The translations under genes were made by a program, and so were the position numbers. Below, piece by piece: positions 20,732-37,569 of a stretch of 58,626 nucleotides of DNA. The DNA is from Chloroflexota bacterium (GTDB lineage: Bacteria > Chloroflexota > Anaerolineae > Aggregatilineales > Phototrophicaceae): contig JACRPS010000014.1 in assembly GCA_016223085.1 (NCBI GenBank), positions 14,643 to 73,268 on the forward strand. Reading direction: 5' to 3'. Position 1 is the first letter of the stretch. Every line of letters starts with the position of its first letter. The notes below the pieces were generated by a model. It was not told the origin of the DNA. It saw only the letters and a list, made by a program, of their open reading frames with translations, and did no database searches.

Positions 20732-20760
20732 TTGACAATGTTCGTGAAGAACGTTACGCT
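20732..20760 (+). promoter_or_regulatory. Promoter of the ilv-leu cluster
   Basis: TTGACA (20732-20737), 17-nt spacer, TACGCT (20755-20760). It drives the leader peptide at 20789, giving a short 5' untranslated segment of about 20 nt. Confidence 0.65.
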
Positions 20761-20788
20761 ATGTAACAGTTCATTGATACATGGAAAT

Positions 20789-20875
20789 ATGACCGTGTTC
20801 ACGCGCAGCATCAGCAACGGCCTCATCCTTATTAGCATCGTTATCGTACTCGTCCTTATTAGCGGCGGGTTATAA
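20789..20875 (+). CDS. Branched-chain amino acid leader peptide (ilv-leu)
   Basis: A 28-codon ORF just before the ilvE terminator. Residues 12-24 read LILISIVIVLVLI: twelve of thirteen residues are Ile, Val or Leu. It ends with TAA at 20873-20875, one base before the antiterminator strand. The composition parallels the leaders of enterobacterial ilv operons although the sequence is different. A ribosome slowed by lack of any of the three charged tRNAs should stall inside the run; a ribosome reaching the stop codon would cover the antiterminator strand. A short overlapping ORF (ATGGAAATATGA, three codons) ends at its start codon. The ribosome site is weak (GGAAA). Confidence 0.82.
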   Translation: MTVFTRSISNGLILISIVIVLVLISGGL

Positions 20876-20876
20876 C

Positions 20877-20952
20877 GGCTTGGGTGGTGGTTGATACCAG
20901 CGTAGACGGTGTGTAAACAGCAAAAGCCCCCAAGCCGGGGGCTTTTTATTTT
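20877..20952 (+). promoter_or_regulatory. Transcription attenuator of the ilv-leu cluster
   Basis: Antiterminator strand GGCTTGGG (20877-20884) is perfectly complementary to CCCAAGCC (20929-20936), which contains the 5' strand and loop of the terminator AAAAGCCCCC / GGGGGCTTTT. The two structures cannot coexist. The antiterminator strand begins directly after the leader stop codon, so a terminating ribosome hides it and lets the terminator form, while a ribosome stalled upstream leaves it free. A small hairpin TGGT-TGAT-ACCA (20888-20899) sits between. Confidence 0.78.
20922..20952 (+). terminator. Intrinsic terminator in the ilv-leu leader
   Basis: 10-bp stem AAAAGCCCCC / GGGGGCTTTT with a 5-nt loop, followed by TTTTTATTTT. 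Confidence 0.92.
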
Positions 20953-20972
20953 CACAGAGGAGAGCAAAGCCC

Positions 20973-21176
20973 ATGTTCCCGCAGATGATGACGCAGCAGC
21001 AAACCGAACGCCGTGACGATTACCCGACCAGCCCCTGGACGGAGACGTTCCAGTCCTGTCTGGCGGATTCCGCCACCCCTGCCAGCTACCCAGCCATGCA
21101 GCCGGCTGCGGCTGACAACGATACCCAGTCACCGACGCACGACGCGCTTTCCGCCATTTACAACCAGGGCTATTAG
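20973..21176 (+). CDS. Small hypothetical protein between attenuator and ilvE
   Basis: A 67-residue ORF with a good ribosome site (GAGGAGAG, 9 nt before the ATG). The product is hydrophilic, rich in Gln, Thr, Pro, Asp and Ala (MFPQMMTQQQTERRDDYPTS at the start), with no membrane segment, cysteine pair or recognisable motif; it looks disordered. It lies after the leader terminator and 38 nt before ilvE, so it would be the first gene expressed when the attenuator is open. It might be a real small protein or a chance frame; the ribosome site and position favour the first. Confidence 0.45.
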   Translation: MFPQMMTQQQTERRDDYPTSPWTETFQSCLADSATPASYPAMQPAAADNDTQSPTHDALSAIYNQGY

Positions 21177-21214
21177 GAAAGCGCGTTCTGTTTATCAAGG
21201 GGAGAGGAGACACC

Positions 21215-22153
21215 ATGCCCGCTGAATGGATCTGGAGGAACGGCAACTTTGTCAAATGGGAGGATGCGACCGTCCACGTTACGGCCCACGCGCTGCATTA
21301 CGGGTCGAGCGTGTTTGAGGGGATACGCGCCTACGCCACGCCGGAAGGGCCAGCCGTATTCCGCCTGCAACCGCACACCAGGCGGCTGTTCAACTCGGCC
21401 AAGATTGCGCGCATTGAGATGCCGTTTTCCGAGGATGAAGTGAATGCCGCCATTCTCGAAACCATCCGACGCAACGGTCACGAGTCCTGCTACGTGCGTC
21501 CGCTGGTATTTCGGGGCGCGGGCAGGCTGGGGGTTGAGGGACGTAAAAACCCAACAGAAACGATCATCCTGACAATGGAGTGGGGGCGCTACCTGGGCAA
21601 CGAGGCGATTGAACAGGGCGTGGACGTGCAGGTGAGTTCGTGGCGGCGCATCGCGCCGGACACGTTCGCTTCGATGTCAAAGATCGGCGGGCAGTACGTC
21701 AACAGCCAGTTTGTGACGATGGAGGCCACCGACAACGGCTTTACCGAGGGCATCGCGCTCGATTTTAACGGCTATGTCAGCGAAGGCGCGGGCGAAAATA
21801 TTTTTGTGATTGTGGATGGCGTAGTGTATACGCCCGGCGCGTGGTCATCCATCCTGCTTGGCATCACCCGTGACACGGTGCTGACGCTGCTGAATGACCT
21901 GGGCTACGAAGTGCGCTACGAGCCGATTGCCCGTGACATGCTGTACGTCGCCGACGAGATGTTTTTTACCGGCACTGCGGCGGAAGTGACGCCGATTCGC
22001 TCGGTGGACCGCATCACCGTCGGCGCGGGCAAACCGGGGCCGATCACCCGGGCGGTACAGGAAGAATTTTTTGCGATAACTTCCGGTCAGAAACCGGACC
22101 GTCACGGCTGGCTAACCTACGTGCGCCAGTCCGAACCGGCAGCGGGAGATTAG
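21215..22153 (+). CDS. ilvE: Branched-chain amino acid aminotransferase
   Basis: A 312-residue fold-type IV PLP enzyme that catalyses the last transamination of Ile, Val and Leu synthesis. Features: HALHYGSSVFEGIRAY, YVRPLVFRGAGRLGV, the Schiff-base lysine at about residue 156 in ASMSKIGGQYVNSQF, and EGAGENIFVI. AGGGGAGAGGAG lies before the ATG. It begins the long co-directional run ilvE-ilvB-ilvN-ilvC-leuA-leuCD-cimA-leuB. D-amino acid and 4-amino-4-deoxychorismate enzymes share the fold, but the context supports IlvE. Confidence 0.93.
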   Translation: MPAEWIWRNGNFVKWEDATVHVTAHALHYGSSVFEGIRAYATPEGPAVFRLQPHTRRLFNSAKIARIEMPFSEDEVNAAILETIRRNGHESCYVRPLVFRGAGRLGVEGRKNPTETIILTMEWGRYLGNEAIEQGVDVQVSSWRRIAPDTFASMSKIGGQYVNSQFVTMEATDNGFTEGIALDFNGYVSEGAGENIFVIVDGVVYTPGAWSSILLGITRDTVLTLLNDLGYEVRYEPIARDMLYVADEMFFTGTAAEVTPIRSVDRITVGAGKPGPITRAVQEEFFAITSGQKPDRHGWLTYVRQSEPAAGD

Positions 22154-22222: not shown

Positions 22223-22258
22223 CAGCATGTGGGGAAAACGAGGGGAGCAGAGAAAACG

Positions 22259-23956
22259 ATGATTTTAACCGGCGCTGAAATTGTGATGGAGTGTCTCATC
22301 CGCGAGGGTGTGGAAGTCATGTTTGGTTATCCCGGTGGCGCAATCCTGCCGACCTACGATGCCATGACCAAATACCCGCAGCTTCGGCACGTCCTCGTCC
22401 GGCACGAACAGGGTGCAGCGCACATGGCCGATGGCTATGCGCGGGCGACGGGTCGGGTTGGTGTGGCGATTGCCACCAGCGGCCCCGGCGCGACCAATCT
22501 GGTTACGGGCATCGGCACGGCGATGATGGACTCGTCCCCGATTGTGTGCATCACCGGCCAGGTGCCACGCGGCACGATTGGCTCCGATGCGTTCCAGGAG
22601 ATTGACATCACCGGCATTACGCTGCCGATCACCAAACATAATTATCTGGTGAACGACGTGCGCGAGCTGGCCTACACCATCCGCGAGGCGTTTCACATCG
22701 CCCGGACTGGCCGCCCTGGCCCGGTGCTAATTGACATTCCGAAGGATGTGCAGAACGAAAAGACCGAGTTTATCTATCCCGAAGGCCCGATTCGCCTGCC
22801 CGGCTACCGCCCACCCAGCAGCGCCAGTGAGGAGCAGCTTGCCGACGCGCTGGAACTCATCAGGCAGGCGAAGAAGCCGGTTATCCTGGCTGGGCACGGC
22901 ATCCTGATGTCCGGCGCAGTGAACGAACTGCGCGAACTGGCGGAACGGGCGCAAATCCCGGTCACGCTGACGCTGCTCGGCAAAGGGGCAATCGCGGAGC
23001 AGCATCCGCTGTGTGTGGGCATGATGGGGATGCACGGCGCGGCAGCCTGTAATTATGCCATTCAGGAAGCGGATTTGCTGATCGCGCTGGGAATGCGCTT
23101 TGACGACCGCGTGACTGGCAACCTCAAAACCTATTCGCCCAACTCGCGCAAAATCCACGTGGACATTGACCCGTCAGAAATCAATAAAAATGTGAAGGTG
23201 GATGTCGGCATTGCGGGCGACGTGCGCACTGTCCTGTCACAACTGCTGCCACACGTGCCCTCGAAGCAGCACATCGAATGGATCAACCGTATCCGTGACT
23301 GGCAGGAAGACGGTGACGAGCGCGACATCGTGCACCACGACAGCGGCGATAAACTGTATGGAGCGCAGGTGATTAACGATCTGTGGCATTACACCGGCGG
23401 CGACGCGCTGACCGTCACCGATGTTGGTCAGCACCAGATGCTCGAAGCGCAGTATTACCCGCACCAGCGCCCGCATACCCTGCTGACCAGCGGCGGCCTG
23501 GGCACGATGGGTTTCGGGCTGCCGGCGGCGATTGGCGCCAAGCTGGGCAGGCCGGAAGAAGAAGTTTGGGCAGTTGTGGGGGATGGCGGCTTCCAGATGA
23601 CACTGTGTGAACTGGCGACAGCGATGCAGGAAAACGTGAAAGTGAACATCGCCATCCTGAACAACGCTTTCCTGGGCATGGTGCGTCAGTGGCAGGAATT
23701 CTTCTACGAGGAGCGTTACCACGCCACGCCGATGTACAGCCCGGACTTCGTGAAGCTGGCGGAAGCCTATGGTATCCCGGCCATGCGTGTTACCAGCCGT
23801 GACCAGATCGAGGAGTCGGTGCGGTTCGCGCGCAGCCACGACACAACGGTGCTGATCGAATACGCCATCGAGAAGGAAGAAATTGTGTACCCAATGGTTC
23901 CGGCAGGGGCCGACCTGCATAACATGCTCCGCCGTCCGAAACCAGGAGAGAAATAA
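22259..23956 (+). CDS. ilvB: Acetolactate synthase, catalytic subunit
   Basis: A 565-residue thiamine-diphosphate enzyme making 2-acetolactate or 2-aceto-2-hydroxybutyrate. The ATG at 22259 follows GAGGGGAGC and yields MILTGAEIVMECLIREGVEV; an in-frame start ten codons earlier lacks support. Glu50 in VRHEQGAAHMADGYARATG activates the cofactor. The FAD-linked middle part contains ALGMRFDDRVTG, and the TPP/Mg motif GDGGFQMTLCELATAMQE ends in NN near residue 441-469. It pairs with ilvN, which starts 2 nt after the stop. Confidence 0.95.
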   Translation: MILTGAEIVMECLIREGVEVMFGYPGGAILPTYDAMTKYPQLRHVLVRHEQGAAHMADGYARATGRVGVAIATSGPGATNLVTGIGTAMMDSSPIVCITGQVPRGTIGSDAFQEIDITGITLPITKHNYLVNDVRELAYTIREAFHIARTGRPGPVLIDIPKDVQNEKTEFIYPEGPIRLPGYRPPSSASEEQLADALELIRQAKKPVILAGHGILMSGAVNELRELAERAQIPVTLTLLGKGAIAEQHPLCVGMMGMHGAAACNYAIQEADLLIALGMRFDDRVTGNLKTYSPNSRKIHVDIDPSEINKNVKVDVGIAGDVRTVLSQLLPHVPSKQHIEWINRIRDWQEDGDERDIVHHDSGDKLYGAQVINDLWHYTGGDALTVTDVGQHQMLEAQYYPHQRPHTLLTSGGLGTMGFGLPAAIGAKLGRPEEEVWAVVGDGGFQMTLCELATAMQENVKVNIAILNNAFLGMVRQWQEFFYEERYHATPMYSPDFVKLAEAYGIPAMRVTSRDQIEESVRFARSHDTTVLIEYAIEKEEIVYPMVPAGADLHNMLRRPKPGEK

Positions 23957-23958
23957 CC

Positions 23959-24525
23959 ATGAGTGAGAGCCAGAAACAAACGGTCGTCGCCCTGGTGGAG
24001 AACAAACCGGGCGTGCTGAACCGGGTCGCCAGCCTGTTCCGGCGGCGTAACTTTAACGTGGACAGCCTGACCGTTGGCCGGACGCACAAGCCGCATCTAT
24101 CCCGGATGACGATTGTGGTAGATGCCGCGCGCACCGATGGCCGCCGCATCGCTGCCAACCTGTTTAAGCTGGTCAACGTGATTGACGTAAAACTGGTGTC
24201 GGAAGAACCTTACGTCAGCCGTGACCTGGCACTGATTAAGGTGCGGACGGACGACGCCGACTCACGCAATGCTGTGACGCTGATCTGTGACCGCTACCCG
24301 GCGCGCATCGTGGACATGGGTGTGAAGGTGGCGATTGTGGAGATCACGGCGCAGGAAGACATCGTGGAATCGCTCATCCGCGAACTGGAACCCATCGGCA
24401 TTGTTGAGATGGTGCGTACCGGCGTAGTGGCGATGGGGCGCGGCGTGCGTATCCTCGATACTGATTACGAGCCGCCGCTGAAAGTAGCGGAAACCAACGG
24501 CAACTATCAGGTCTACGGGGTGTAA
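23959..24525 (+). CDS. ilvN: Acetolactate synthase, regulatory subunit
   Basis: A 188-residue subunit with an N-terminal ACT domain (VVALVENKPGVLNRVASLFR, RRRNFNVDSLTVG) and the C-terminal ALS_ss_C half. It activates IlvB and transmits feedback inhibition, usually by valine. Its length corresponds to the IlvH/IlvN type of about 160-190 residues. It directly follows ilvB with a ribosome site (AGGAGAG) inside the ilvB end, consistent with coupled synthesis. Confidence 0.94.
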   Translation: MSESQKQTVVALVENKPGVLNRVASLFRRRNFNVDSLTVGRTHKPHLSRMTIVVDAARTDGRRIAANLFKLVNVIDVKLVSEEPYVSRDLALIKVRTDDADSRNAVTLICDRYPARIVDMGVKVAIVEITAQEDIVESLIRELEPIGIVEMVRTGVVAMGRGVRILDTDYEPPLKVAETNGNYQVYGV

Positions 24526-24530
24526 TTGTG

Positions 24531-24558
24531 GTAGGGACACGATATATCGTGTCCCTAC
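24531..24558. repeat. Perfect 28-nt palindrome between ilvN and ilvC
   Basis: Same sequence as at 19183-19210 (arm GTAGGGACACGATA). It lies inside the ilv-leu run and lacks a T-run. Confidence 0.9.
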
Positions 24559-24624
24559 GGAAGTGTTCTGGATAAAGTCAGGCGGTATGCAGCCGCCGCT
24601 AGGGAGCAACAGGAAGGTTTTTGA

Positions 24625-25635
24625 ATGGCAACCATGTATTACGACAATGACGCGGATTTATCGCTGCTGCAGGGCAAGACGATTGCGGTCATCGGCTACG
24701 GCAGCCAGGGACATGCCCACGCGCTGAACGCGAAGGACAGCGGGCTGGAGGTGGTTGTCGGCCTGCACGCCGGCAGCACCAGCGCGGTGAAGGCCGAGGC
24801 CGACGGGTTGAAGGTGCTGTCGGTCGAAGACGCGACGAAAGCCGCCGACGTGGTGATGGTGCTTATCCCCGATACCAAGCAGGCCGAGGTGTACGAGAAG
24901 TCCATCGGGCCGAACCTGAAGCCGGGCAGCATGTTAATGTTCGCGCACGGCTTTAACATCCACTTTGGCACGATCAAACCGCCGGCTAACGTGGACGTGG
25001 CGATGATCGCGCCGAAAGCACCGGGCCACCGCGTCCGTGAAGTGTTTAAGGACGGCGGCGGCACACCCGGCCTGCTGGCAGTACATCAGGACGCCAGCGG
25101 CTGCGCCAAGCAGTTGGCGTTGGCCTACGGCAAAGCGATTGGCTGCACCCGCGCCGGCGTGATTGAGACGACGTTTAAGGAAGAAACGGAAACCGACCTG
25201 TTTGGTGAGCAGACCATCCTGTGCGGCGGTGTGACGGCGCTGATTCGCGCAGCGTTTGAAACCCTGGTGAAGGCCGGTTACCAGCCGGAAGTCGCCTACT
25301 TCGAGTGTATGCACGAACTGAAGCTGATCGTTGACCTGCTGTACCAGGGTGGCCTGAGTTACATGTGGTACAGCGTAAGCGACACGGCGGAATACGGCGG
25401 CTACGTCGTGGGCGATCAGGTCGAAGGCATGGTGAAGGAAGAATTCGACGGCGTGCTGCACCGGATTCAGGACGGCAGCTTTGCCAAAACCTGGATTCAG
25501 GAAAACAAGGATGGCCGCCCGAACTTCCTGCCGCGCCGCCACCAGGAACACGATCTGCTGATCGAAAAAGTGGGCGCGGAACTGCGTGACATGATGCCGT
25601 TCCTGAACGCCAAGCGCATCAAGCAGGCGGACTAA
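24625..25635 (+). CDS. ilvC: Ketol-acid reductoisomerase, class I
   Basis: A 336-residue enzyme converting acetolactate to dihydroxyisovalerate with a reduced nicotinamide cofactor and Mg. Landmarks: [20 protein letters not shown] (Rossmann), [34 protein letters not shown] (metal ligands) and [20 protein letters not shown]. In the cofactor-selecting loop the usual GLRPGS is GLHAGS: His replaces the Arg that often contacts the NADPH phosphate, so cofactor preference may differ. AGGAAGG precedes the ATG. Confidence 0.95.
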
Positions 25636-25651
25636 TTAGCGAGAACGCGGT

Positions 25652-26509
25652 ATGCACGTGCGTCGCTTCGATGACGTCAGCGAATTTTATCAGCGTGTCG
25701 CGCCGTTCCTGATGGCGCGAGAGGCCGAACATAACCTGATGCTCGGCCTGTGTTCGGTGCTGCGGCAAGGTAACATGTACCAGCATCCACCGTATCTGGC
25801 GCTGGTTGAAGACGCGGGTGAGGTGGTGGCCGTGTCTATGCGGACGCCGCCTTACAACCTTATCCTGTCCGAAATGGCCAATACACGCCCGGTGCAGGTA
25901 ATTGCCGATGATGTGTACCACCTGTACGGTGAGGAGCTACCCGGCGTCAATGGCCCGAAAGCGTGGAGTAAAACCTTTGCCGAGTGCTGGTCATCCCTGA
26001 GCGGCAAGCCACATCGTTTGAAGATGGCACAGCGGATTTACCGGCTGGAATGGGTGCGCCCGGTCAGCGGTGTGTCCGGCGAAATGCGCCGGGCGACGGA
26101 AACCGACCGGGATCTGCTGCTGCGCTGGGAGCTGGCGTTCATGCAGGACGCATTCGGCGAGGCTGACCCGGAACAGGCGGAGCGTCTGGTTGAAACGGCG
26201 CTCTTGGCTGACCCGGCCATGCGCGGGCGCTTCCTGTGGTGGGACAGCGGCCAGCCCGTTTCGCTCGTTGGATACACCGGCCCTACGCCGAACGGGATGC
26301 GCATCGGGCCTGTCTACACACCGCCGGAACTGCGCGGGCGGGGTTATGGCAGCGCGTGTACGGCGGCAGTCAGCCAATGGCTGCTCGATCAGGGTCGTAA
26401 GTTCGTTTTTCTGTATACCGATTTGAGCAACCCCACGTCGAATCACATCTACCAGAACATCGGCTACAAGCCGGTGAGCGACGTGGATATGTATCGGTTT
26501 GGAGAGTAG
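25652..26509 (+). CDS. GNAT-family N-acetyltransferase, two-domain
   Basis: A 285-residue protein with a C-terminal GNAT domain: GPVYTPPELRGRGYGSACTA is the acetyl-CoA pyrophosphate loop, followed by VFLYTDLSNPTSNHIYQNIG, the usual last strand-helix. The N-terminal half is a divergent GNAT-like region (EAEHNLMLGL, PPYLALVEDAGEVVAVSMRT). The acceptor substrate is unknown. It sits between ilvC and leuA (gap of 16 nt after ilvC), so it is probably cotranscribed with the branched-chain genes, though no role in that pathway is established. Its stop codon TAG is part of the palindrome at 26506. Confidence 0.8.
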   Translation: MHVRRFDDVSEFYQRVAPFLMAREAEHNLMLGLCSVLRQGNMYQHPPYLALVEDAGEVVAVSMRTPPYNLILSEMANTRPVQVIADDVYHLYGEELPGVNGPKAWSKTFAECWSSLSGKPHRLKMAQRIYRLEWVRPVSGVSGEMRRATETDRDLLLRWELAFMQDAFGEADPEQAERLVETALLADPAMRGRFLWWDSGQPVSLVGYTGPTPNGMRIGPVYTPPELRGRGYGSACTAAVSQWLLDQGRKFVFLYTDLSNPTSNHIYQNIGYKPVSDVDMYRFGE

Positions 26510-26533
26510 GGACACGATCTATCGTGTCTGTAT
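26506..26533. repeat. Palindromic repeat overlapping the GNAT gene stop
   Basis: GTAGGGACACGAT then ATCGTGTCTGTAT around a 2-nt centre; two mismatches in the outer right arm. The TAG in the left arm is the stop codon of the gene. Confidence 0.8.
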
Positions 26534-26544
26534 GACCAACGCAC

Positions 26545-26572
26545 GTAGGGACACGGCATGCCGTGTCCCTAC
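26545..26572. repeat. Perfect 28-nt palindrome upstream of leuA
   Basis: Arm GTAGGGACACGGCA followed by its exact reverse complement. Second GTAGGG element in tandem, 11 nt after the previous one. Confidence 0.9.
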
Positions 26573-26712
26573 AGGAATAGAAAACGGAGCTGTTATGGAT
26601 GACGCATCCGGTGTAGCCAGAAAGGGGGTGGTCTGATGTCCGAAGATGGTCTTGCTGATCTTTGCCGTTCGACATTCGACCTGAGAGCATTTACAGAAAG
26701 GATCACCCCACA

Positions 26713-28338
26713 ATGGTTACACCACCTGTTGACGAGAACGTTGTCCGGTTTTTTGATACCACCCTGCGTGACGGCGAACAAAGCCCCGGCGCAACCCTGA
26801 GCAGCGCCGAAAAGCTGGAAATCGCGCGGCAGTTGGCGCGGCTCGGTGTAGACATTATCGAAGCGGGTTTCCCGGCGGCATCGCCGGATGATCTGGCCGC
26901 CGTGCAGCGTATCGCGCGGGAGGTTGGCACGGCAGACGGGCCGGTAATCTGCGGGCTGGCGCGCGCGGTCGAGAGCGACATCCGCACCTGCTGGGAAGGC
27001 GTGAAGGATGCGGCCAAACCCCGCATCCACACGTTCCTGGGCACGTCCGACATTCACCTGAAATACCAGACCGGTATGACCCGCGAACAGGCGTTGGCCG
27101 CGATTCGCAAGGCGGTCACGCTGGCGCGCAGCCTGTGTGACGACGTGGAGTTCAGCCCGATGGACGCGGGGCGCACCGACCCGGCGTTTCTGGTGGAAGT
27201 GTGTGCGCTGGCCGTCGAGTGTGGCGCGACCACGCTCAACATTCCGGATACGGTCGGCTACTGCACGCCGCAGGAATGGGGCGACCTGATCGCCAATCTG
27301 ATCGCGGAAACGCCGGGCGCAGGGCCGGGCAGCGGAGTGGCGTGGTCGGTTCACTGCCACAACGATCTGGGGCTGGCGACGGCCAACACGCTGGCCGGAG
27401 TGATGGCCGGGGCGCGGCAGGTGGAAGTGACGATCAACGGCATTGGCGAACGCGCCGGCAATACCAGTCTGGAAGAAGTGGCGATGGCGATAGCGACGCG
27501 CCCGCAGTTCTTCAACGTGCGGACAAACATAAACACGCGCGAGATCATGAAAACCAGCCGACTGGTGAGCAACTACACCGGCATGGCCGTGCAGCCGAAT
27601 AAGGCGGTTGTCGGAGCGAATGCCTTCGCGCACGAGGCCGGTATTCATCAGGACGGTGTGCTGAAGAATTCCAGCACCTATGAAATCATGACGCCGGAAA
27701 GCGTCGGCCTGCACCAGAGCCGCCTGGTGCTGGGCAAACACAGTGGCCGCCACGCCCTCAAAGCCCGCCTGAAGGAACTGGGTTACAACATCGAAGGTGA
27801 CGCGCTGAATCAGGTGTTTGCCCGGTTTAAGGATTTGGCCGATGCTAAAAAGACCGTCACCGATGCCGATCTGGAAGCGTTGATCGCCGACGAGTTCAAC
27901 CGCCCGGAGGAGATTTTTAGTCTGGTGGATATTCAGGTAACGTGCGGCACGATGGGGATGCCGACGGCGACCGCCAAGCTGCGTAACGCCAACGGCGAGG
28001 AATTTGTGTACGCGGCGGTCGGCGCGGGGCCGGTGGATGCGGCCTATAAGGCGATTGACGCGATCATCCAAGCGCCAAATACGCTGATCGAATACAGTGT
28101 CCACAGCGTAACGGAAGGCATTGACGCGCTGGGGGAAGTAACGGTGCGCGTCGCGCCCGCCGGACGCGAGGGTGACAAACGCTCATTCGGCGGCTATGGC
28201 GCGGACAGCGACATCGTGGTTGCCAGCGTGAAGGCGTACATGGCGGCGGTTAACCGCATGGTGGCGGTGCTCGGTTATGGCGACCGCCAGCCGGAAGGCG
28301 AAGCGGCGACGGTGGGCGTGAAGAGCGCCGGGGATTAG
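26713..28338 (+). CDS. leuA: 2-isopropylmalate synthase
   Basis: A 541-residue enzyme condensing acetyl-CoA with 2-oxoisovalerate, the first step specific to leucine. The ATG at 26713 follows AAGGA by 13 nt and gives [20 protein letters not shown]; an upstream frame opening at 26662 lacks a ribosome site. Landmarks: [12 protein letters not shown] (metal and catalytic), [32 protein letters not shown], and a C-terminal LeuA regulatory domain from about residue 390 that binds leucine. It is the long, feedback-regulated form. The 203 nt before it hold two palindromes and a 13-codon frame, described elsewhere. Confidence 0.95.
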
Positions 28339-28355
28339 GAAATGTAGGGAATGGT

Positions 28356-28385
28356 GTAGGGGCGGGTTTCGAAACCCGCCCCTAC
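28356..28385. repeat. Perfect 30-nt palindrome between leuA and leuC
   Basis: Arm GTAGGGGCGGGTTTC followed by its exact reverse complement. Nearly the same as the element at 10993. Confidence 0.9.
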
Positions 28386-28415
28386 GGAATGAGAATCAAA
28401 GGTAGACGAACAACG

Positions 28416-29852
<1,437 letters not shown>

Positions 29853-29853
29853 C

Positions 29854-30465
29854 ATGGAACCTATTACTACCTTTACCGGGCGGCTGGCGCCGCTACCGAT
29901 CAACGACATTGACACCGACCAGATTATCCCGGCGCGTTATCTGAAAGTGACGGATAAAAACGGCCTGGGCGCGGCGTGTTTTTCCGACTGGCGCTACAAC
30001 GCCGATGGTTCGCCCAAAGCCGACTTCGTGCTGAACAGATCCGAATACCAGGGCGCGGCGGTGCTGGTTGGCGGGCACAACTTTGGCTGTGGCAGTTCGC
30101 GCGAGCATGCGCCCTGGGCGCTGCTGGGCGCGGGTTTCAAGGCGGTTATCAGTACCTACTTTGCCGATATTTTCCGGGGCAACGCGCTCAAGAACGGCCT
30201 GCTGCCCGTGCAGGTGGACGCTGAGACTCACCGCCAGCTTATCAGCCTGGCGGAAGAAGACCCGTCAGCGCAGGTGACGGTGAATCTGGAAGCGCAGACC
30301 GTGACGCTGCCGGATGGCCGCAGTGTCGAATTTCCGATTGACCCGTTCTCGCGTTACTGCCTGCTGAACGGCGTAGATCAGCTTGGTTTCCTGCTCGGTC
30401 TGGATGAACAGGTAGCCGAATTTGAACGATTGCATCCAGGGCGCGTACAAACGACCGCCAGCTAA
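29854..30465 (+). CDS. leuD: 3-isopropylmalate dehydratase, small subunit
   Basis: A 203-residue swivel-domain subunit, normal in length for bacterial LeuD. It shows [38 protein letters not shown] and [17 protein letters not shown]. It joins LeuC to form the active site. The start codon is one base after the leuC stop, so the pair are coupled. Confidence 0.95.
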
Positions 30466-30474
30466 GGGGGAACT

Positions 30475-32067
<1,593 letters not shown>

Positions 32068-36082: not shown

Positions 36083-36103
36083 TTTTCTCAACAATTGAAC
36101 AAG

Positions 36104-36203
36104 TCTCATAAAGAGCGGTGGAGGGAACGGCCCTGTGAAACCGCGGCAACCCCCGTAACAGGGAAGGTGCCAAGTCCGGCAGAAGTGTTTCTGAGAGATG
36201 AGA
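36104..36203 (+). ncRNA. SAM-I (S-box) riboswitch aptamer
   Basis: All S-box landmarks are present in order: TCTCAT (36104) pairing with ATGAGA (36198-36203) as P1, AGAGCGGTGGAGGGAA, CGGCCCTGTGAAACCG, CGGCAACC, the pseudoknot-bearing loop, AGGTGCCAAGTCCGGCAG and TGAGAGATGAGAG. The element senses S-adenosylmethionine and lowers downstream expression when it is abundant. It precedes cystathionine gamma-synthase, matching the known regulon. P1 and the downstream sequence should compete with the terminator at 36238. Confidence 0.96.
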
Positions 36204-36237
36204 GTGCGTATTTGGCGCGATGCGCCAATCGAACTCG

Positions 36238-36324: not shown

Positions 36325-37569
36325 ATGGTACAGGAACGGCTTAACGATACCACCGCAGCAAACGGCAGCAGCCATCGTCCGGCGCGGGGCAGCAGCACGC
36401 GGGCGGTGCATGGCGGCACACCGCGGCGCAAGGCGTTTAGCGCGCTGACGACGCCGATTGTTCAGACAGCAACCTATACCTTCCGCGATACGCAGGATTT
36501 GATGGAGTACATGGAGCGCAAGACCTGGGGCGATGGTGACGACCGGGAAGAATACGGGCGTTACGGCAATCCAACGGTTGCGGCGGTGGAGCGCAAGCTG
36601 GCCGCGCTGGATGGCGGCGAGGACGCCGTGCTGTATGCTTCCGGCATGAACGCGGTTACGTCGCTGCTGTTGTCGGTGCTGTCAGCCGGCGGGCACATCG
36701 TCATGACCGACGACTGTTACCGCCGCACGCGCCAGTTCTGTTTGACCTTCCTGCAGCGGTTTGGTATTGAAACCAGCGTTGTGCCGATGGGCGATTACGC
36801 GGCGCTGGAAGCGGCCATCATCCCCAAAAAGACGCGCTTTATCATCTCCGAAAGTCCGACCAACCCGTATCTACGCGTTGCCAATCTGGAACGGATTGCC
36901 GCGCTAGGCAAAAAATATCGCGCGCTGACGGTGATTGACAGTACGTTTGCGACGCCAGTCAACCAGCGTCCTCTGGAATGGGGCATTGATTTTGTGGTTC
37001 ACAGCGCCACCAAGTACCTGTCCGGCCATAACGATCTGCTGGCGGGCGTGGTGGTGGGCCGCGCCGACCGCATCAAGGCGCTACGCGACGCGCGCGGGGT
37101 CTTGGGCGGGGTAGTTGACCCCCAGAATGCGTATCTGCTGGAACGCGGCGTCAAAACGCTGGCGGTGCGGGTGAAACAGCAGAACCAGTCGGCGCTGGCG
37201 GTGGCGCGCTTTCTGGAGGCGCACCCGCGTATCGAACGGGTATGGTATCCTGGCCTGCCATCTCATCCTGACCACGACACCGCCGCCGCGCAGATGAGTG
37301 GCTTTGGTGGCGTGGTGAGCTTCGAGGTCGCGGGTGACTTGCAGGCAACCGCGCGCTTCATTGACCACCTGCGGATTCCGTATATCGCGCCGAGTTTGGG
37401 CGGCGTGGAAAGCCTGATCGAGCAGCCGGCGCTGATGAGCTACTACGAAAAGACCAGCGAGGAACGGCTGGCGCTGGGTATCAAGGACAATCTGGTGCGG
37501 TTTGCCATCGGCATCGAAGATACTGAAGATATCCTGAACGATCTGGACCAGGCATTAGCCGCAGTTTAA
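36325..37569 (+). CDS. metB: Cystathionine gamma-synthase, plant-type
   Basis: A 414-residue Cys/Met-metabolism PLP enzyme. It condenses an activated homoserine with cysteine, feeding methionine synthesis. The Schiff-base lysine is about K230 in VVHSATKYLSGHNDLLAGV. Many segments (EYGRYGNPTV, GGHIVMTDDCYRRTR, YPGLPSHPDHD, GFGGVVSFEVAGD, IPYIAPSLGGVESL, GIKDNLVRFAIGIED) follow the plant enzyme closely. The first ~35 residues are low-complexity and polar. GGAGAGGGTGAGCA leads to the ATG. The upstream SAM-I riboswitch supports a methionine role; a gamma-lyase or O-acetylhomoserine sulfhydrylase cannot be strictly excluded. Confidence 0.9.
   Translation: MVQERLNDTTAANGSSHRPARGSSTRAVHGGTPRRKAFSALTTPIVQTATYTFRDTQDLMEYMERKTWGDGDDREEYGRYGNPTVAAVERKLAALDGGEDAVLYASGMNAVTSLLLSVLSAGGHIVMTDDCYRRTRQFCLTFLQRFGIETSVVPMGDYAALEAAIIPKKTRFIISESPTNPYLRVANLERIAALGKKYRALTVIDSTFATPVNQRPLEWGIDFVVHSATKYLSGHNDLLAGVVVGRADRIKALRDARGVLGGVVDPQNAYLLERGVKTLAVRVKQQNQSALAVARFLEAHPRIERVWYPGLPSHPDHDTAAAQMSGFGGVVSFEVAGDLQATARFIDHLRIPYIAPSLGGVESLIEQPALMSYYEKTSEERLALGIKDNLVRFAIGIEDTEDILNDLDQALAAV

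Follow-up and report, generated by a model that had tools for sequence, protein, structure and literature searches.

Attenuators are the textbook example of positive codon selection, in which leaders abound in codons for whichever amino acid they sense, and the classical enterobacterial ilv and leu genes are preceded by leader-peptide attenuators. In E. coli pyrBI, a ribosome that translates the leader ORF close to RNA polymerase keeps the terminator open, and UTP is sensed through the behavior of the polymerase in a U-rich stretch. Candidate leader peptides have also been described upstream of ilvB in Actinobacteria, where runs of Ile, Leu and Val codons overlap the terminator hairpin and the way in which these leaders regulate was left open; a second ORF and terminator are not mentioned in the excerpted account of these leaders (PMC1262725). 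The Salmonella mgtCBR leader, as described in the excerpts of another study, was termed ‘a singular example’ of tandem attenuators that respond to different signals (PMC3641672).

The locus studied here lies in a 58,626-nucleotide stretch of DNA, called the window, from a member of the Anaerolineae (Chloroflexota); the original prediction, that an Ile/Val/Leu attenuator is found here in a different lineage, was right on this point. As in the enterobacterial ilv and leu attenuators and the actinobacterial ilvB candidates, so far as the excerpts describe the latter (PMC1262725), an Ile/Val/Leu-rich leader ORF and a terminator precede biosynthetic genes, and the window element also has a clear antiterminator that could be masked by a ribosome at the stop codon. 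Unlike the enterobacterial and actinobacterial leaders, it belongs to the Chloroflexota, has ilvE as the first gene, and has an attenuator strand 2 that adjoins the stop codon. We propose, with a probability of roughly two in three, that this ilv-leu leader is a two-gate transcription attenuator in which a second hairpin, T2, would be held open by a ribosome translating a second small ORF, ORF2. The attenuator of the original prediction is supported by a conserved leader and first terminator (T1), a covarying antiterminator and the position of strand 2, but the prediction was incomplete, in that T1 does not appear to be the last barrier to transcription and both ORF2 and T2, which are less ordinary than gate 1, had been overlooked.

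The first gate: leader peptide, antiterminator and terminator

The first enzyme gene of the cluster, ilvE (branched-chain aminotransferase; 21215..22153, + strand), scored above the cut-off with both NF005146 (430.5 bits) and TIGR01122 (415.1 bits). The closest named relative is the contig of an Aggregatilineales MAG, with an IlvE that is 89% identical, and it assigns the window to the Anaerolineae. On the + strand, ilvE is followed by ilvB, ilvN, ilvC, an unassigned gene, leuA, leuC, leuD and cimA (22229..32067; NCBIfam), and argH lies upstream (NCBIfam). With ilvE first and cimA last among the genes scanned, the gene order is indeed the different one that had been remarked upon. The unassigned gene (25652-26506, between ilvC and leuA) fell below every NCBIfam cut-off, and its sole match was a weak one to MshD (mycothiol synthase; 22 bits, far below cut-off). 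The same genome also has a second IlvE-like gene, 38% identical (L002, G000 C21 153232-154140), and no Ile/Val/Leu-rich leader ORF was found in the 900 bp upstream of it.

A promoter-like site, TTGACA-17-TACGCT, can be read from the sequence at 20732..20760 (+ strand). Its −10 element is weak, agreeing with the consensus at 3 of 6 positions, which is why a generic consensus scan lists no promoter here. The site recurs in leaders of the same genus: in all 16 that were examined, the best site was TTGACA-17-TAnnnT, from a search in which spacers could be 16-18 long and A and T were fixed at −10 positions 2 and 6. Downstream is the Ile/Val/Leu-rich leader ORF of 28 codons, ORF1 (20789..20875, + strand), which encodes MTVFTRSISNGLILISIVIVLVLISGGL with LILISIVIVLVLI as residues 12-24. 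A single C (20876) separates its TAA (20873-20875) from strand 2 (GGCUUGGG), which thus begins one base 3′ of the ORF1 stop and upstream of ilvE, reading GGCTTGGG at 20877..20884 (+ strand). Strand 3 (CCCAAGCC; 20929..20936, + strand) is complementary to strand 2, with which it could form the antiterminator, or it joins the intrinsic terminator T1, identified by a terminator scan (20922..20952 with its T-rich tail, + strand; fold of −16.8 kcal/mol, z −3.0), whose stem-loop is AAAAGCCCCC-AAGCC-GGGGGCTTTT (20922-20946). The promoter-like site, the 28-codon ORF with its residues 12-24, the spacing of one base between its stop and strand 2, and the complement of strand 2 inside the terminator had all been predicted, and each was found exactly as described.

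The original prediction depended on the ORF being conserved, and it is: an IlvE match at E 1e-100 or better was obtained in 93 of the 98 genomes of the family, and an Ile/Val/Leu-rich leader ORF lies 5′ of ilvE at 91 of these 93 loci. When gate 1 was defined as an ORF 10-65 codons long in which 8 or more of 12 residues are Ile, Leu or Val (I/L/V), together with a terminator within 110 nt, leader ORF and T1 were both present at 90 of the 93 loci, compared with 2 of 930 dinucleotide shuffles. The leader ORF was not found at G027, where a leader/T1 element stands before ilvB instead, or at G069, which has only 366 bp upstream; T1 was not found by the terminator rule at G028, a locus that a covariance model of the leader and T1 does detect. 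Complementarity between strands 2 and 3 reached at least 6 bp at 85 of the 90 loci and fell short of it at the other 5, and strand 2 started 3-5 nt past the first base of the ORF1 stop at 74 of 90. In an alignment (A1) of 62 of the 90 T1 loci, in which genera g16 and g17 were limited to nine each, the 8-bp antiterminator was formed in 93.5% of cells, and 5 of its 8 pairs showed double compensatory changes (on both sides). Its covariation score was 0.182, versus 0.071 in shuffles (0 of 500 reached 0.182) and 0.010-0.075 when the pairing was slid along the alignment.

These family counts leave out six order-level genomes (G042, G043, G047, G049, G054 and G059); in five of these, some I/L/V-rich ORF is accompanied by a terminator, and the strand 2 motif was not seen by eye. 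In four of the six (L122-L125; G049, G043, G054, G059) we noted a different small ORF, hydrophobic and conserved (MALFALPILSLILITGLL...), which has a strong terminator after it and is located 5′ of the IlvE match, again with the strand 2 motif absent by eye. Within the window's own genome, the covariance model found one strong site (106 bits; the next scored 20.9), and in a survey of the class it matched 150 of 396 genomes at E 0.001 or better (these E-values being rough), 27 of which belong to the window's family. We inspected 20 stretches hand-picked from the upper part of the list (one of them, G027, from the window's own family) and then 20 more (14 from family f42); an ORF with at least 8 of 12 I/L/V was present in 15 of the first 20 (one ORF each) and in 19 of the second 20. 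NCBIfam assigned 8 of 10 downstream ORFs from the first 20 stretches to branched-chain amino acid (BCAA) enzymes, namely ilvB (3), ilvD (4) and leuA (1, cut by the end of the stretch and just below its best cut-off), and gave no match at E 1e-60 for the other 2. By eye, the I/L/V codons of the leader ORF in the class-level relatives L163-L182 are often spanned by an inverted repeat of the type GCTCCTT...AAGGAGC, possibly a pause hairpin.

Judged by the features that can be tested in sequence, gate 1 is a classical leader-peptide attenuator: a short ORF rich in the end products precedes an intrinsic terminator ahead of the first gene, and pairing, position and covariation indicate a mutually exclusive antiterminator that would be masked by a ribosome at the stop site but left free by a stalled one. 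When Ile, Val and Leu abound, a ribosome at the ORF1 stop would cover strand 2 and T1 would end transcription; in shortage, a ribosome stalled on the I/L/V codons of ORF1 would let strand 2 pair with strand 3 and the polymerase would pass. The gate is widespread in Anaerolineae and of an ordinary kind in a little-studied group; these data document leader-peptide attenuators before BCAA genes across a class that is mostly known from metagenomes. A comparative attenuation survey by Lopatovskaya, Seliverstov and Lyubetsky may already include Chloroflexota, and we therefore claim no priority for gate 1.

Rfam gave no gathering-level match in the leader region, and the sub-threshold scores of Trp_leader (22.1 bits, cut-off 41) and Phe_leader (22.0 bits, cut-off 55) were not taken as membership. 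Elsewhere in the window there is a SAM riboswitch (RF00162, 89.7 bits; 36103-36204) upstream of the ORF at 36325-37569. In the same genome, trpE was considered as a second leader-peptide case and rejected, as a T-box precedes it instead (RF00230, 125.1 bits; L203 3023-3275, C1). With a T-box at trpE and a leader peptide at the ilv-leu cluster, this genome does not rely on one type of RNA device for all its amino acids.

A second hairpin and the ORF that enters it

Between T1 and ilvE is a second terminator-like hairpin, T2 (21141-21187), found by a search for stems with T-rich tails. Its 5′ arm is at 21141..21152 and its 3′ arm (21176-21187) with the T-rich tail is at 21176..21195, both on the + strand; the stretch 21138-21195 folds with −22.9 kcal/mol (z −5.3), and the tail in the window (CTGTTTAT) is weaker than most T2 tails of the family. 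Among the 91 leader-bearing family loci, T1 and ilvE are 180 nt or more apart in 55. With a minimum score of 17, T2 was present in 53 of these 55, compared with 92 of 1100 shuffles; when the minimum was raised to 24, the counts were 43 of 55 and 8 of 1100. Because T2 was chosen for its pairing, this shuffle comparison serves as the control. At threshold, T2 was absent from two loci with room for it (G107 and G117) and from the 36 of 91 leader-bearing loci with a gap below 180 nt, so gate 2 is dispensable. The T2 of G095, retained in the counts, is probably a different hairpin. More than one type of base pair occurs at 10 of the 11 aligned stem positions (51 anchorable hairpins of the 53), and the stem ends 22-60 nt 5′ of the start of the ilvE match at 46 of 53 loci. 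An RNA antiterminator upstream of T2 was sought and rejected, the best upstream complements of the 5′ arm scoring no better than single-base shuffles (15.7 vs 16.6), which makes a ribosome the likelier opener of T2.

A candidate for the path of that ribosome is ORF2 (67 codons; 20973..21176, + strand), which crosses the 5′ arm of T2 and whose stop codon abuts the 3′ arm. ORF2 was identified by a blind rule that takes the earliest ATG at least 8 nt past T1 whose frame is open beyond the start of the arm and ignores I/L/V content, and the rule picked an ORF2 at 51 of the 53 T2 loci (not at G076 or G088). An ATG ORF that begins after T1 and stays open up to the 5′ arm was present at all 53 real loci, versus 4465 of 10600 shuffles. 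In one locus the rule picked wrongly (G067, 13 I/L/V; the true frame likely starts with GTG) and in two others the frame may be wrong (G031 and G083); all three were retained in the counts.

In the window, the 56 codons of ORF2 before the T2 5′ arm include one Leu and no Ile or Val. Pooled over the loci, I/L/V make up 98 of 2159 residues (4.5%) upstream of the arm. The corresponding share is 23.7% in 16 long window ORFs, of which NCBIfam names 9, 718 of 4188 (17.1%) when this DNA is read in its other two frames, and 15.6% when a similar ORF rule is applied to shuffles. The three most depleted of the 20 residues are Ile, Val and Leu (0.13, 0.19 and 0.23 of their comparison frequencies), whereas Phe (1.09) and Met (2.32), whose codons also have a middle T, are not depleted. 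A compositional artifact is thus ruled out by Phe and Met (likewise encoded by NTN codons), by the other frames and by the shuffles. Disordered proteins are generally depleted in Phe, Tyr, Trp, Cys and Met; ORF2 is not, and intrinsic disorder was rejected for this reason. None of 1118 45-residue windows of the 16 long ORFs falls to 6% I/L/V, and 6% of shuffled ORFs are at 0.06 or less, in comparison with 35 of 51 ORF2s at or below 6%. In ORF2, moreover, Cys, Gln, Met, His, Ser and Trp reach two to three times their comparison frequencies and Gly is depleted (0.41), which may reflect sensing of other amino acids.

The avoidance of I/L/V ends at the hairpin or a few codons before it. In all 11 genera, I/L/V content is 0-5.0% up to codon −6, counted from the arm, and 11-30% from the start of the arm to codon +9. 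Pooled, I/L/V codons rise from 10 of 510 at −15 to −6 to 39 of 255 at −5 to −1 (Fisher P 8e-12), or from 6 of 370 to 21 of 185 without the largest genus, g17 (P 1.6e-6), P values that overstate independence because the loci are related. The rise before the arm is seen in 5 of the 11 genera (g1, g5, g9, g17 and g40), and g11 has 1 of 10; g16 (11 loci) shows no such rise, with 2 of 55 at codons −5 to −1, and in g16 and four small genera (g10, g14, g15 and g20) I/L/V return only at the arm. The distance from the ORF2 start to the arm has a median of 45 codons (20-63; 20-45 in g17), and at 23 of 51 loci ORF2 runs past the T2 loop rather than stopping in or at it.

A similar ORF occurs in another family, f42, where I/L/V account for 8 of 228 residues up to about five codons before the hairpin in seven loci, one of which (L163) supplies 5 of the 8; the seven were chosen from 19 fetched loci because a GCAGAAAAC/GTTTTCTGC hairpin had been noticed in them. 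The next gene in these seven is ilvB by NCBIfam in two (L163 and L168) and ilvB-like by eye in two (L192 and L193). In family f50, locus L201 has a 76-codon ORF with only 2 I/L/V codons 5′ of an ORF that by eye resembles acetolactate synthase, and this small ORF ends in DCYNG, resembling the ends of ORF2 in the window's family.

Several observations bear on whether ORF2 is translated. A Shine-Dalgarno-like GAGGAG can be read from the sequence before it (20957..20962, + strand), and GGAG, GAGG or AGGA precedes the ORF2 ATG at 17 of 51 loci, compared with 2 of 65 ATGs that lie out of frame in these stretches. Pooled over 263 pairs, which are not independent, with g17 left out, pN/pS was 0.61 in frame versus 1.21 and 1.28 in the other frames. 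Close pairs within g17 (pN/pS 0.74-2.63) gave no support for coding, and indel lengths showed no preference for multiples of three in alignments that were frame-blind and poor.

A two-gate model and its alternatives

In the two-gate model, T2 would be a second intrinsic terminator with its 5′ arm inside ORF2, and it would be open only if a ribosome starts ORF2, keeps pace with RNA polymerase and reaches the arm. ORF2 would be kept free of Ile, Val and Leu codons until about the point where a stalled ribosome would itself cover the arm; starvation could then open gate 1 without closing gate 2. Gate 1 would open by a stall for Ile, Val or Leu and gate 2 by the lack of a stall on other amino acids; the likely purpose would be to demand a shortage of BCAA alone while translation on the other amino acids works. 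From the conservation of T2 and from codon avoidance that ends at or shortly before the hairpin, we infer that T2 would terminate transcription in vivo, that a ribosome on ORF2 would open it, and that the gate would separate BCAA shortage from general starvation. We offer more tentatively, as a proposal about as apt to fail as to hold, that the leader computes “BCAA lacking AND translation otherwise healthy”, with ORF2 purged of conflicting codons up to about one ribosome leading edge from the arm.

Published distances agree with where the avoidance ends. The excerpts of two studies give the reach of a ribosome as about 12 nt downstream of the translated codon (PMC4833913) and as 12-15 nt from the P site (PMC3641672); with a reach of 12-15 nt, a stall at about codon −5 would therefore touch the T2 arm and a stall farther upstream would not. 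Where a stall would allow T2 to form, BCAA-stalling codons are rare; where it would block T2, they are tolerated. In E. coli experiments, ribosomes in translation were reported to silence a terminator just behind a stop codon almost completely but one late in a coding region only in part, for which the authors blame pauses in translation that uncouple the ribosome; a terminator in the first 100 bp was hardly affected (PMC4824070). The distance quoted there for a ribosome to catch up is 100-200 nt (PMC4824070). Most ORF2 lengths from start to arm lie within this range; in g17, the 20-45 codons before the arm are mostly near or below the 100 bp in which the E. coli terminator escaped the ribosome.

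The most serious rival, although we consider it unlikely, is that T2 belongs to a second BCAA sensor of the occlusion type, in which ORF2 would carry the ribosome unstalled as far as the arm, I/L/V codons at and after the arm would hold it there during starvation so that T2 stays open, and in plenty the ribosome would move off and T2 would form. Such codons are indeed close at hand, with at least one between codons −5 and +7 of the arm at 49 of 51 loci and single positions reaching 45% (codon +2) and 37% (codon +5) I/L/V. However, I/L/V amount to 136 of 725 codons (18.8%) from −5 to +9, at or below the 23.7% found in long ORFs of the window, which means that the arm is not enriched overall; much of the I/L/V there follows from the arm sequence itself (CTT read as Leu), and two loci (G003 and G031) have no I/L/V codon between −5 and +7. 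Because the codon at which avoidance ends differs between genera, we hold the two-gate model and the AND proposal with slightly less confidence, and this rival with slightly more, than we otherwise would.

We think it distinctly improbable that T2 does not terminate at all and instead affects how stable the mRNA is or how the ribosome-binding site of ilvE is presented, with ORF2 coupling translation to ilvE. The closeness of T2 to the ilvE match noted above (22-60 nt at 46 of 53 loci) and the overlap of some ORF2s with the ilvE start would suit such a role, but a T-rich tail follows the stem, and tailed stems exceed their shuffle control (53 of 55 vs 92 of 1100), an argument that is partly circular because the T2 search demanded such a tail. 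In addition, I/L/V codons come back before the ORF2 stop, so that reaching the arm is what matters and not finishing ORF2. The stop lies 35-76 nt before the start of the ilvE match at 36 of 51 loci, beyond the reinitiation distance of 10-11 bp discussed in the excerpted source (PMC4833913).

Still less probable is that ORF2 encodes a functional small protein whose lack of Ile, Val and Leu is coincidental. Two motifs, SPWTE and PTHDALSxIYN, are shared by a subset of the loci, and among the 21 pairs listed outside g17 pN/pS spans 0.16-0.58, a range lowered by their preselection for at least 55% protein identity. Yet loci without SPWTE still avoid I/L/V (for example G003, G009, G065, G070 and G072), Phe, Tyr, Trp, Cys and Met are not depleted, and the avoidance stops at the hairpin and not at the end of the protein. 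Pfam gave no match to ORF2 of the window and, for that of one relative, a single match below threshold (PF16665), so that no Pfam family is assigned. As for the idea that ORF1 is a hydrophobic membrane peptide or toxin and no attenuator leader, its strong hydrophobicity fits, but a core made almost only of Ile, Leu and Val, a near-constant distance from stop to strand 2 and a covarying antiterminator make this hardly credible.

Comparison with known attenuators

In the two-gate model, ORF2 is the mirror image of positive codon selection, with selection against the sensed codons that ends at the hairpin or a few codons before it. If the working proposed here is true, RNA alone could let a cell tell one particular shortage apart from starvation in general; amino-acid attenuation would include a specificity checkpoint, and the codon boundary would be a ribosome footprint written in the genome sequence. 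The pattern also supplies a search rule, a small ORF that avoids its operon's own amino acids ahead of a terminator, with which similar gates may be sought elsewhere. In the available extracts of the open-licence literature on tandem attenuators, coupled translation and Chloroflexota or Anaerolineae, we found no second ORF purged of the sensed amino acids before a terminator.

The Salmonella mgtCBR leader, as its excerpted description has it, is alike in combining two short ORFs and two stem-loop systems in one leader and in making the second system depend on the progress of a ribosome into its ORF (PMC3641672). It differs in that the second ORF, mgtP, is rich in the amino acid sensed, so that stalling favors expression, and in that its stem-loops are unlike intrinsic terminators, which the T2 of the window resembles (PMC3641672). 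ORF2, in contrast to mgtP, avoids the sensed amino acids and by eye has no run of a single residue. We conclude that the window leader works in part like mgtCBR but is not to be filed with it, since the two ORFs and two stem-loops are found here and a codon-rich second ORF is not.

The likeness to E. coli pyrBI lies in a leader ORF that runs into a terminator hairpin, where a ribosome near the polymerase keeps the terminator open; at our loci such an ORF is open to the T2 arm in 53 of 53 and, by the stricter rule, past the start of the arm in 51 of 53. The pyrBI leader senses UTP, whereas ORF2 is marked instead by its avoidance of three amino acids. By analogy, the gate formed by T2 and ORF2 would be comparable in principle to that of pyrBI.
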